NCBI GenBank assembly: GCA_017380995.1
Contig: JAFOCY010000007.1
Span: 1-13,964 of the forward strand
Source of the DNA: Oscillibacter sp.
GTDB taxonomy: Bacteria; Bacillota; Clostridia; Oscillospirales; Oscillospiraceae
DNA: 13,964 nucleotides
Direction: 5' to 3'
A program made the position numbers and the translations under genes. Shown one piece after another: positions 1,807 to 7,547 of this stretch. How positions within the stretch are numbered: position 1 is the stretch's first letter; every line of letters starts with the position of its first letter. The notes below the pieces were generated by a model, which was not told where the DNA came from, ran no database searches, and was given only the letters and a program-made list of their open reading frames with translations.

Positions 1807-1834
1807 TTGAAATTTCCATTTTTAATGGTATGAT
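1807..1834 (+). promoter_or_regulatory. promoter of the CobW-type GTPase operon
   Basis: TTGAAA (1807-1812), a 16-base spacer and TATGAT (1829-1834), with a TGG triplet directly before the -10 giving an extended -10. It lies 38 bases ahead of the ATG at 1873, where AAAGGAA (1857-1863) is the ribosome binding site. I searched the surrounding AT-rich stretch (1791-1872) for a Zur-like palindrome and did not find a clear one. Confidence 0.7.
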
Positions 1835-1872
1835 ATGTTTGATATTTTATTTTAACAAAGGAATGATCCAAC

Positions 1873-3099
1873 ATGACGAAAATTGATATTTTTTCCGGTT
1901 TCTTAGGCGCCGGCAAGACTACTCTCATCAAAAAGCTTCTCTCTGAAGTTTACCAGGGCGAAAAGCTGGTGCTCATCGAAAATGAATTCGGCGAGATCAG
2001 CATTGACGGCGGCTTTTTGAAGGAGTCCGGCGTACAGATCTCCGAGATGTCCTCCGGCTGCATCTGCTGCTCCCTGGTGGGCGATTTCAACCAGGCCCTC
2101 AAGGACGTTGTGGCCCAGTATCAGCCTGACCGGGTGCTCATTGAGCCCTCCGGCGTGGGCAAGCTCAGCGATGTGATCGTGGCTGTTGAAAATGCCGTGG
2201 CCGAAAGCGAAGGCACCATGGTGCTGGGCAGCGCCGTTGCCGTGGTGGACGCCAGCAAGGTGAAGGTCTATATGAAGAACTTCGGCGAGTTTTATAACAA
2301 CCAGGTGGAGTCCGCCGGCACCCTGATCCTCTCCCGCACCCAGAAGCTGAGCGACGAAAAGCTCCATGCCGCCGTTGAAATGCTGCGGAAGAAGAATCCC
2401 GACGCCGCCATCCTCACCACTCCCTGGGATGAGCTTTCCGGCAAGACCATCCTCTCCGCCATTGAGAAGGTGTCCCTGGCCGATGAGCTGCTGGAAAAAA
2501 TGCGCTCCGAGCACGAGGAGCACGAGCATCACCATCATCATGACCACGATGAGCATTGCGAGTGCGGCTGCCACGACCATGAGCATCATCACCACCATGA
2601 CCATGACGAGCACTGCGACTGCGGCTGCCATGACCACGAGCATCATCACCACCATGACCATGACGAGCACTGCGACTGCGGCTGCCATGACCACGAGCAC
2701 CACCATCACCACGACCACGATGAGCACTGTGAGTGCGGCTGCCATGACCACGAGCACCACCATCACCACGACCACGACGAGCACTGCAACTGCGGCTGCC
2801 ACGATCATGACCATCACCATCATCACGCCGATGAGGTCTTCACCTCCTGGGGCGTGGAGACACCCAAGAAGTTTACCGAAGGTGCCATCCACGAGATCCT
2901 GGAGGAGCTGGACTCCGGCGAATATGGCAAGGTCCTGCGTGCCAAGGGCATCGTCAATGGCGAAAACGGCTGGATCGAGTTTGACTACGTCCCCGAGGAG
3001 CACGAGATCCGCGCGGGCCACCCCGACTATACCGGCCGCCTGTGCGTCATCGGCGCGGAGCTGGACGAGGGCAAGCTGAAGACCCTCTTCGGTCTGTAA
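1873..3099 (+). CDS. CobW/COG0523 family GTPase with His/Cys-rich tandem-repeat insert (putative metallochaperone)
   Basis: A 408-residue G3E-family P-loop GTPase. Visible in order: Walker A GFLGAGKT (residues 9-16), the ENEFGE motif (36-41), the metal-binding GCICC motif of COG0523 proteins (62-66), the Walker B-region EPSG (91-94), then a histidine-rich insert (about 216-318) and a CobW C-terminal domain (about 319-408). COG0523 proteins move or insert Zn, Co or Ni in the cytoplasm using GTP; the exact metal is unknown here, with zinc the likeliest inference. The insert holds five 19-residue units, each with nine His and three Cys, far more than the usual short His stretch. The base-recognition motif is not NKxD: the equivalent place reads SRTQ (154-157). 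It is first in a tight operon. The next gene's ribosome binding site overlaps its stop codon. Confidence 0.9.
   Translation: MTKIDIFSGFLGAGKTTLIKKLLSEVYQGEKLVLIENEFGEISIDGGFLKESGVQISEMSSGCICCSLVGDFNQALKDVVAQYQPDRVLIEPSGVGKLSDVIVAVENAVAESEGTMVLGSAVAVVDASKVKVYMKNFGEFYNNQVESAGTLILSRTQKLSDEKLHAAVEMLRKKNPDAAILTTPWDELSGKTILSAIEKVSLADELLEKMRSEHEEHEHHHHHDHDEHCECGCHDHEHHHHHDHDEHCDCGCHDHEHHHHHDHDEHCDCGCHDHEHHHHHDHDEHCECGCHDHEHHHHHDHDEHCNCGCHDHDHHHHHADEVFTSWGVETPKKFTEGAIHEILEELDSGEYGKVLRAKGIVNGENGWIEFDYVPEEHEIRAGHPDYTGRLCVIGAELDEGKLKTLFGL
2527..2826 (+). repeat. 57-bp coding tandem repeat (5 copies) encoding a His/Cys metal-binding array
   Basis: Five uninterrupted 57-base units run from 2527 to 2811, followed by a partial unit of five His codons (2812-2826). 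Each encodes the pattern HHHHHDHDEHCxCGCHDHE, where x is E, D, D, E or N. Units 2 (2584-2640) and 3 (2641-2697) are identical base for base. Units 4 and 5 differ from each other at a few mostly silent positions, and unit 1 is the most diverged along with the final one. The array keeps frame because its period is a multiple of three. It carries about 50 His and 15 Cys and lies between the GTPase domain and the C-terminal domain. Confidence 0.97.
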
Positions 3100-3111: not shown

Positions 3112-4050
3112 ATGCCCAAGAACGACATTCCCGTTTATCTGGTCGCCGGTTTCCTGGACGGCGGCAAGACCAACTTTATCAACGGCATCCTCCAGGACGG
3201 CTTTGCCAGAGAGGACCGTACCCTTCTCATCTGCTGCGAAGAGGGTGAGGAGGAATATGATGAATCCGCCCTGGGAAACGTCACCGTAGTGTACGTGGAC
3301 GAGGAGAAGGACCTCCTTTGCTCCCAGCTGAAGGCCTGGGAAAAGCTGTACCGTCCCAAGCAGGTCATCATCGAATACAATGGTATGTGGCAGCTGGAGC
3401 GGCTGTACCGGGACGTCCTGCCCGCCAACTGGGTCCTCTATCAGATCATGACCTTCGTGGACGCCGCCACCTTTGAGCCCTATGCCCGGAACATGGGCCA
3501 GCTAATGATGGAAAAGGTGATGAACACGGACCTGCTGGTCTTCAACCGCGCCACCCCCGAGGTCCGGGACGCTCTGCGCCAGCGGAACCTCCGGATGGTG
3601 AACCGTCAGGCAGATATTTTCTTTGAAATGATGGACGGCACCAGCGAGGAGTACCTCACCGGCGATGAATGCCCCTTTGATCTGGACCAGGAGGTCATCC
3701 ACATCCCTGATGAGGACTTTGGCGTCTGGTACGTGGATGTGATGGACCACCCTGACCGGTACGAGGGCAAGCTGGTTCACATGAAGCTGATCATGTGTCA
3801 CTCCAAGCAGTTCCCCGGTGTGGACTGTCCCGGCCGCTTTGCCATGGTCTGCTGCGAAAACGACATCCAGTTCCTGGGTCTCATTGCCAAGGGTGAGGGC
3901 CTGAGCCAGTACAATAACCACGACTGGATCGAAGTCACTGCCAAAATGGGTATCGAATCCCACGCCGCCTACCAGGGCGAGGGTCCTGTGATGCACATTG
4001 TCTCCATCGCTCCCTGCGAAAAGATCGAGCAGGACATCGTAAGCTTTTGA
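3112..4050 (+). CDS. Divergent CobW-like P-loop protein with YcgQ/DUF1980-like C-terminal domain
   Basis: A 312-residue protein, the second gene of the operon, with AAGGAGG (3098-3104) overlapping the previous stop. The N-terminal half follows the CobW plan: IPVYLVAGFLDGGKTNFI with a P-loop at residues 13-20, then an EYNG (88-91) where CobW proteins have EPSG. The GCxCC metal motif is missing; ICCEEGEEEYD (40-50) lies after the second strand instead. NRAT replaces NKxD. The C-terminal part (about 203-312) reads WYVDVMDHPDRYEGKLV, then CPGRFAMVCCENDIQFLG and later a PVMHI..I.PCEKIEQD ending. This resembles the C-terminal domain of YcgQ/UPF0703 (TIGR03943) proteins, which elsewhere pair with a predicted permease. 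That match is from memory and should be tested. Cys229, His230, Cys239 and the Cys247-Cys248 pair are candidate metal ligands. Likely a partner of the upstream GTPase in metal delivery; this is inference. Confidence 0.75.
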   Translation: MPKNDIPVYLVAGFLDGGKTNFINGILQDGFAREDRTLLICCEEGEEEYDESALGNVTVVYVDEEKDLLCSQLKAWEKLYRPKQVIIEYNGMWQLERLYRDVLPANWVLYQIMTFVDAATFEPYARNMGQLMMEKVMNTDLLVFNRATPEVRDALRQRNLRMVNRQADIFFEMMDGTSEEYLTGDECPFDLDQEVIHIPDEDFGVWYVDVMDHPDRYEGKLVHMKLIMCHSKQFPGVDCPGRFAMVCCENDIQFLGLIAKGEGLSQYNNHDWIEVTAKMGIESHAAYQGEGPVMHIVSIAPCEKIEQDIVSF

Positions 4051-4565
4051 TGAAAAGCCGGGAAATTGCCCTATGCGGTATGCTGAATGCCCTGGCGGTG
4101 GTTCTCATGAACCTGGGAAGCCTGGTTCCTCTGGCCACCTTCTGCACGCCCCTTCTTGCCATGCTGGTGCTGCTGCCGGTACTGGAGGAGTACGGAGCGC
4201 GGATGGGTTGGGCGGCCTGGGTCTCCGTCAGCATCCTCTCCCTGCTGCTGGTGACGGACCGGGAAACGGCGTTGGTGTATGTCTTTTTCGGTTGGTATCC
4301 CATGGTGCGGCCCAAGGTGGCTGCCATCCGGTCCAAAGTACTGCGCTTTGGCGTAAAGTTCCTGATCTGTAACGGTCTGATCTTCACACTCTATGGATTG
4401 GTGCTGCGGCTGATGGGATTGACCGCCGACCTGTTGGACTCCACCCGCCTCATGAACGCCCTCCTGCTGATTCTGGGAAACCTTGTGTTTTTCCTGACGG
4501 ACCTGGTTTTGCAGCGCATGACTCTGGTGTGGACGGTAAAGCTGCGGAAACGTTTTTTCAAATAA
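4050..4565 (+). CDS. Small multi-spanning membrane protein, possibly an ECF-type S-component (function unknown)
   Basis: A 171-residue very hydrophobic protein. Its ATG shares one base with the TGA of the preceding gene (TGATG at 4048-4052). There is no good ribosome binding site of its own, so translation is probably coupled. About five or six membrane segments can be drawn, near residues 6-21, 25-46, 54-68, 73-84, 102-122 and 136-153, ending in a basic tail. Size, topology and the N-terminal ALCGMLNALAVVLM segment are reminiscent of ECF-transporter substrate-binding (S) components and related small clostridial membrane proteins, but I do not recognise a named family with confidence. A TTG one codon earlier (4047) is the only alternative start. 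Its place behind two CobW-type proteins suggests a role in metal transport or sensing, which remains inference. Confidence 0.7.
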   Translation: MKSREIALCGMLNALAVVLMNLGSLVPLATFCTPLLAMLVLLPVLEEYGARMGWAAWVSVSILSLLLVTDRETALVYVFFGWYPMVRPKVAAIRSKVLRFGVKFLICNGLIFTLYGLVLRLMGLTADLLDSTRLMNALLLILGNLVFFLTDLVLQRMTLVWTVKLRKRFFK

Positions 4566-7106: not shown

Positions 7107-7547
7107 ATGAAAAGAAGCATGACTCTTGCCCTTCTGGTCCTGGCTGCCATTGTCTGCGTGGTAGCCACTGGATGCGGCAGCCGCAAAGACCAGTCCACCA
7201 ACGACACCATGAACGGCACCACCAGTTCCAGCGGTGCCACCAGTTCCAACGGCTCTGCCAACGGTTCCAACGGCTCCGGTGATTCTGCCAGCGGTTCCGG
7301 CGGTGCCATCGGCAGTACCATGGAGGGCGTGGGTGACGCCATCACCGGCAGCAACGGTTCCGGCAGCGGTTCCGGCAGTGGCTCCGGCAGTGGTTCCGGA
7401 AACGGTTCCGGCAGTAGTTCCGGAAGCGGCTCCACTTCCAATCACTACGCATCCTCCGGAGTCCCTTATGACCAGATGCTGGATAACGGCAAGGTCACGG
7501 ACCACGACGGCAATCTCAACAACGATCCTGCCGCCCGCGGCCGCTAA
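7107..7547 (+). CDS. Small Gly/Ser-rich lipoprotein, function unknown
   Basis: A 146-residue predicted lipoprotein. The N-terminus has a basic MKR, a hydrophobic core and the lipobox ATGC with the modified cysteine at residue 23, so it should be anchored on the outer face of the cell membrane. Most of the mature chain (about 30-112) is low complexity, made of Ser, Gly, Asn, Thr and Ala, ending in a (GSGS)n block at 84-109. The only non-repetitive part is the last 35 residues or so, including YASSGVPYDQMLDNGKVTDH. The reading frame is open back to 6888, but the ATG at 7107 is chosen because AGGAG (7094-7098) precedes it by eight bases and because it gives a textbook signal peptide. I do not recognise the C-terminal segment. 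Possibly a flexible surface spacer. Confidence 0.85.
   Translation: MKRSMTLALLVLAAIVCVVATGCGSRKDQSTNDTMNGTTSSSGATSSNGSANGSNGSGDSASGSGGAIGSTMEGVGDAITGSNGSGSGSGSGSGSGSGNGSGSSSGSGSTSNHYASSGVPYDQMLDNGKVTDHDGNLNNDPAARGR
7356..7433 (+). repeat. 12-bp coding tandem repeat (GSGS)n
   Basis: Six 12-base units of the type GGTTCCGGCAGC run from 7356 to 7427, followed by half a unit. They vary at third positions and at a few codons (one unit encodes GSGN, one SSGS). They encode the flexible Gly/Ser tract of the lipoprotein and keep the frame at any copy number. Confidence 0.85.

Follow-up and report, generated by a model that had tools for sequence, protein, structure and literature searches.

The window, a stretch of 13,964 nucleotides from an Oscillibacter sp. 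genome, contains two neighbouring genes on the forward strand which are compiled with their features in Table 1. The first encodes a CobW-type protein, here called P1, in which a G domain and a CobW_C domain are separated by a periodic array of histidines, cysteines and acidic residues. The second encodes the partner protein P2, a fusion of a CobW-like G domain with a DUF1980_C domain. A genome search located P1 on contig C8 of the window's own genome, without internal stops.

Table 1. Positions of the two genes, their domains and motifs, and the array units in the window.
Feature	Position	Strand	Basis
Sigma-A-like promoter upstream of P1 (TTGAAA 1807-1812, TATGAT 1829-1834)	1807..1862 region	+	by eye
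Shine-Dalgarno-like AAAGGA upstream of P1	1857-1862	+	by eye
P1, array-bearing CobW-type protein, 408 aa	1873..3099	+	PF02492 130.4 bits, PF07683 33.5 bits
P1 CobW G domain with GFLGAGKTT	1888..2412	+	PF02492
P1 GCICC metal motif, residues 62-66	2056..2070	+	translation; 5/5 columns invariant (38 aligned proteins)
P1 SRTQ at N/TKxD base-recognition position, residues 154-157	2332..2343	+	alignment to TKTD of YjiA 1NIJ
Array unit 1, HHHHHDHDEHCECGCHDHE	2527..2583	+	translation and unit comparison
Array unit 2, HHHHHDHDEHCDCGCHDHE	2584..2640	+	unit comparison
Array unit 3, equal to unit 2 at 57/57 nt	2641..2697	+	unit comparison
Array unit 4	2698..2754	+	unit comparison
Array unit 5, ending in HDHD (not HDHE)	2755..2811	+	unit comparison
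HHHHH closing the array	2812..2826	+	translation
P1 CobW_C domain, residues 323-406	2839..3090	+	PF07683
P2 partner protein, 312 aa, CobW-like G domain and DUF1980_C	3112..4050	+	PF02492 30.2 bits, PF21537 62.5 bits, both over cut-off
DUF1980_C part of P2, C247 C248 xx D251 invariant (41 aligned partners)	3682..4032	+	PF21537, alignment

The two domains of P1 exceeded the cut-offs of their profiles (20.7 bits for PF02492 and 22 bits for PF07683), and the protein stayed below the NCBIfam equivalog cut-offs for ZigA (78.3 of 600 bits), YjiA (87.6 of 361 bits) and CobW (TIGR02475, 86.6 of 332.1 bits). An intact NKxD motif, given as a trait of G3E proteins in the consulted sections of a survey (PMC2770081), is absent from P1, which carries SRTQ at this place; the TKTD of YjiA is itself no literal NKxD. 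Among the 38 aligned P1 proteins serine 154 of this motif is invariant, arginine 155 and threonine 156 are found in at least 90%, and SRTQ is common to the array-type and the permease-type P1 proteins described below. The label of a chaperone GTPase, which had been attached to the protein in the original prediction, calls for caution: because of SRTQ, P1 is named here a CobW-domain relative without claim of GTP specificity, and as judged from the sequence its nucleotide specificity may be other than GTP. The AF2 model of P1 (mean pLDDT 72.2) has folded domains on both sides of a disordered array (residues 244-320 with pLDDT below 50); residues 1-197 are mostly confident, with values below 50 at 39-47 and at 55-69, the latter including GCICC. 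Upstream of P1, a TTGCATTTT...GGTATGATA-like box is repeated in most of the genus upstream regions among those listed.

P2 was modelled by AF2 with a pLDDT of 92 and a pTM of 0.72. Its DUF1980_C assignment (cut-off 25.9 bits for PF21537) is shared with the TIGR03943/DUF1980 proteins which accompany PF03773 permeases, for example in the YcgQ-YcgR pair of Bacillus subtilis. P2 differs from these in that a profile search found no match to the N-terminal part of DUF1980, and TIGR03943 reached 53.3 bits, under its cut-off of 88.8 bits, in the C-terminal part only. P2 lies downstream of P1 in all 69 genus loci with enough sequence, and likewise in 77 of 77 such loci of a wider set, which was chosen partly by His-rich peptides and partly re-samples genus genomes (such as L087, L101 and L119); because of this choice the prevalence of the array in the wider set is uninformative. 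The array gene is one half of a two-gene cassette. Two further reading frames were noted in the window. One at 4047-4565 encodes a membrane-like protein of 172 amino acids without Pfam or NCBIfam match and is found 600-1500 bases after P1 in only one of 74 genus loci, that of the window; the other, at 7107-7547, is short, lipoprotein-like and has a Ser/Gly-rich repeat with periods of 12 and 24 bp (TRF 7351-7433).

The array and its turnover in the genus

The five in-frame 57-bp units within a CobW-type protein, as originally predicted, were found again, and the estimate of about 50 histidines and 15 cysteines in some 100 residues proved exact: the 100 residues encoded by 2527-2826 comprise 50 histidines, 15 cysteines, 18 aspartates, 11 glutamates, five glycines and one asparagine. 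The identity of two neighbouring units, taken as a sign of recent duplication, was likewise confirmed for units 2 and 3, and the other nine unit pairs differ at 7-10 nucleotides, of which at most one per pair lies outside the third codon positions. TRF described the array with a period of 57, 5.3 copies, 88% match and a score of 436, the top one of 22 rows for the window. At two to four ligands per ion the 65 histidines and cysteines would accommodate, very roughly, 15 to 30 ions.

An origin of the array by chance is implausible because the 57-base repeat is exact and 67 of the 70 linkers in the genus contain an array of this sort. An assembly artefact, which had been named as a possible refutation, is also unlikely: an array is present in the two-contig genome G082 (L030, 4.0 copies of 42 bp), and contigs end within the array in at least four genomes (G016, G041, G043 and G080; 11 loci inspected), as is expected of real repeats in short-read assemblies. 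The units of G016 are of the same 57-bp kind as those of the window, so this kind of unit predates the split of the two. In G016 one contig (L048) continues past the array with a different C-domain before it stops, and another (L076) begins in the array and has the expected C-domain; either the assembly is chimeric here or a second copy exists.

P1 was matched in 75 of the 86 genus genomes, and in 41 of the 42 with at least 90% completeness and at most 5% contamination. From 74 reading frames with the motifs 70 were full-length (L061, L068, L078 and L080 were left out), and all 70 have a His-rich linker. These linkers range from 30 to 129 amino acids, with 17-68 histidines (median 33.5) and 0-15 cysteines, exactly three in 41 and none in 13; the share of His, Cys, Asp and Glu has a median of 89.5%. 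The linker of the window ranks first in cysteines and third in histidines (52, flanks included). Fifty of the 70 contain a CxDPxCxC cluster, and five have CxCGC, as seen in the window. The best periods of the tandem arrays detected by TRF take 20 values, each divisible by three, and an exact tandem duplication with a unit of at least 15 nucleotides is present in 14 linkers.

Comparison of the arrays in related genomes, as suggested in the original prediction, yielded rapid length change between species. Among the 15 closest pairs (at least 95% G-domain DNA identity, from four species clusters) none shares its linker length and all share the length of the C-domain; at 90-95% identity the linker is equally long in one of 120 pairs and the C-domain in all 120, with the reservation that repeat lengths are possibly mis-sized in assemblies of metagenome-derived genomes. 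In 50 pooled arrays (TRF score at least 100, period at least 24) the units disagreed at 12.4% of first, 4.8% of second and 37.7% of third codon positions, the last value being 3.0 times that of the first and 7.9 times that of the second position; third-position mismatch lies above the mean of the other two in 49 of the 50 arrays. Of the 4951 linker residues 4394 are His, Glu, Asp or Cys, and only 116 are Gln, Asn, Tyr, Arg, Pro or Leu, which are one step away from histidine codons. The composition of the array looks selected because the units diverge mainly at wobble positions. Array length would change through gain and loss of units in frame, with selection presumably holding the His/Cys/Asp/Glu make-up and not the exact sequence.

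Permease-type relatives and genomic context

A tree of P1 proteins was calculated from 109 rows with the linker excluded. Twenty-eight rows were drawn at random from the wider locus set, the labels of 40 came from a survey of the genes downstream of P1, L168 (the partner of which ends before DUF1980_C) and L307 received manual labels, and four rows duplicate two sequences or places (L207/L287 and L240/L286). The 72 rows with an array cassette and one row without partner (L246) share a branch with an SH-aLRT support of 99, and 16 permease-type rows fall outside of it, in a tree which stems from a quick search, has several long branches and in which no single branch sets the outgroup apart from all other rows. 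The partnerless member of the array clade (L246/L267) has 19 histidines and no partner within 10 kb.

The permease-type cassette, known from 18 loci in 17 genomes, has the P1 subfamily, the P2 G domain and DUF1980_C in common with the array cassette and differs in the short linker of P1 (0-17 histidines), the presence of a membrane permease and the neighbouring genes. In 15 of the 18 loci the G domain of P2 and a PF03773 permease form one fusion protein, in three (L270, L283 and L284) they are separate, a DUF1980-type protein usually adjoins, and in two loci (L211 and L288) the permease gene lies on the strand opposite to P1. Thirteen of the 18 are located beside zur/znuABC-type genes, namely those of the FUR family (11), ZnuA type (8) or ABC-3 type (8); the ZnuA, ABC, FUR and PF03773 identities were upheld by Pfam in sampled proteins. 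A permease was found in none of 191 array-type entries (197 minus six without P1, repeats of the same place included). Loss of the permease and gain of the array coincide as one event on the tree, and an array cassette that arose once, out of an ancestor of the permease type, would fit these sequences, the direction of change resting on distant and partly long-branched relatives.

The histidine numbers of the two types abut, with at most 17 in the permease type, at most 19 in other outside rows (L241) and at least 17 in the array type; the array-cassette rows of the tree all have at least 18. A survey of the class with the G domain alone as query in 196 genomes listed 52 matches, the best 31 of which, including the window, have an array (L188 is incomplete), and among the lower 21 of those listed the 19 retrieved have 0-15 histidines. 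Both cassette types occur together in G082 and G231, so that there was no simple replacement of one by the other. In G082, a genome of the same genus, the permease-type cassette (L307, G082:C1:1395500-1414500) is accompanied by FUR-family, ABC-3 and ZnuA-type genes and by two further CobW-type genes.

Across the genus, 75 of 86 genomes encode a ZnuA, 22 of 86 a PF03773 protein and, of those of good quality, 37 of 42 a FUR-family protein. In G002, G007, G028, G054, G083 and G085 some 7-8 kb separate a FUR-family gene and the array cassette, which suggests a conserved synteny in these six genomes. A perfect 9+9 palindrome, as a Zur box, was absent from the 160 bp upstream of the 74 genus loci; near znuA (8 loci) just one, GC-rich, was found, so that this search was without positive control.

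Possible function of the cassette

On balance, P1 and P2 probably constitute a cytosolic zinc-handling cassette with a zinc reservoir or antenna which is derived from a zinc-transport cassette, as far as sequence comparison can tell. The ancestral cassette would have been linked to zur/znuABC-type genes, and in it the G domain of P2 would have formed one protein with the PF03773 permease. The array lineage would have lost this permease together with the N-terminal part of DUF1980 and have fused the soluble remnants. The disordered array of P1 may bind many loosely held ions, most likely Zn(II), and the GCxCC site of the G domain may exchange metal under control of the nucleotide with client proteins or, upon contact, with P2 (CEEG and CCxxD); the array would then be an integral reservoir or antenna of a metallochaperone. 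Zinc is proposed because of descent, genomic context and the calculated preference for zinc in cells of the COG0523 proteins YeiR and YjiA (PMC7895991, consulted in part). Of the original suggestion that zinc, nickel or cobalt is stored or buffered, descent and context support the zinc side and nothing favours nickel or cobalt; storage as such we infer. Counting against this reading as a whole, the array cassette stands beside zinc genes in just three distinct places (L008, L097 and L103), with flanks mostly shorter than those of the permease type, and the window's own genome (93% complete) gave no FUR, ZnuA or PF03773 match. The 13 linkers without cysteine, the two genomes with both types, the altered base-recognition motif and the abutting histidine ranges also speak against this explanation, as do the missing palindrome upstream of P1 (in the search lacking a positive control), the partnerless row in the array clade and the coincidence of permease loss and array gain in one event.

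It is rather doubtful that the array acts solely as an antenna which raises local metal to load GCxCC or P2, its capacity being irrelevant. Such a role would account for a free drift of array length, and the loose length (17-68 histidines) with its preserved composition and the position between G domain and C domain agree with it, but 50 ligands would hardly be needed and no array-cassette row of the tree falls below 18 histidines. Still less probable is an array serving nickel or cobalt for hydrogenase, corrinoid or other clients in the manner of HypB or CobW. The His stretch of HypB of B. japonicum does bind nickel, 18 per dimer according to the consulted part of PMC2770081, but 13 of the 18 outside relatives adjoin FUR-, ZnuA- or ABC-3-type genes, and P1 scored 21.2 bits with the hypB profile (cut-off 121.2), besides missing the TIGR02475 cut-off. 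Neutral slippage, by which CAY/GAY-rich repeats would have expanded in a tolerated loop, agrees with the turnover of length and period between near-identical species but is very improbable in view of the excess of third-position mismatch and the scarcity of residues one step from histidine codons.

The zinc-handling cassette allows a more far-reaching version, which we put forward tentatively: a soluble zinc bank may have arisen from one copy of a GTPase-permease cassette linked to zur/znu, which lost its membrane parts, fused the leftovers and acquired in P1 a disordered store adjustable by units. If this is true, array length would be a tunable capacity which tracks the metal supply available to each species in the gut.

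With COG0523/CobW-type G3E proteins (YjiA 1NIJ, ZagA/YciC, ZigA and CobW) P1 shares the G domain, Walker A, GCxCC and CobW_C, and His-rich regions are frequent there: in the consulted sections of Haas et al. 2009 (PMC2770081) about 40% of the 887 proteins are stated to have one, in some cases with as many as 29 histidines. Unlike these, P1 has a periodic array of 50 histidines and 15 cysteines, SRTQ and a fixed partner gene. The view that it is much more elaborate than usual COG0523 proteins holds when compared with that survey maximum, but it is not particular to this protein, being normal for a clade which reaches 68 histidines, with Cys modules and the fixed partner. Hpn, Hpn-like proteins and the His stretches of HypB, compared by description only and in partly consulted sources, are also His-rich metal-binding proteins or chaperone parts; the array of P1 differs in being rich in acidic residues and cysteines, built of tandem units and placed between two CobW-type domains. 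The word permease is absent from the main text of the 2009 survey (PMC2770081), and in the open PMC literature, judged from titles and the beginnings of abstracts, neither the gene pair nor the array clade was found to be described.

To our knowledge, the role of His stretches in COG0523 proteins is unsettled. Within a single genus, the 70 proteins that share their folded domains and range from 17 to 68 histidines offer a natural series for probing it, and the paired protein together with the permease-bearing sister cassette hints at how such systems arise.
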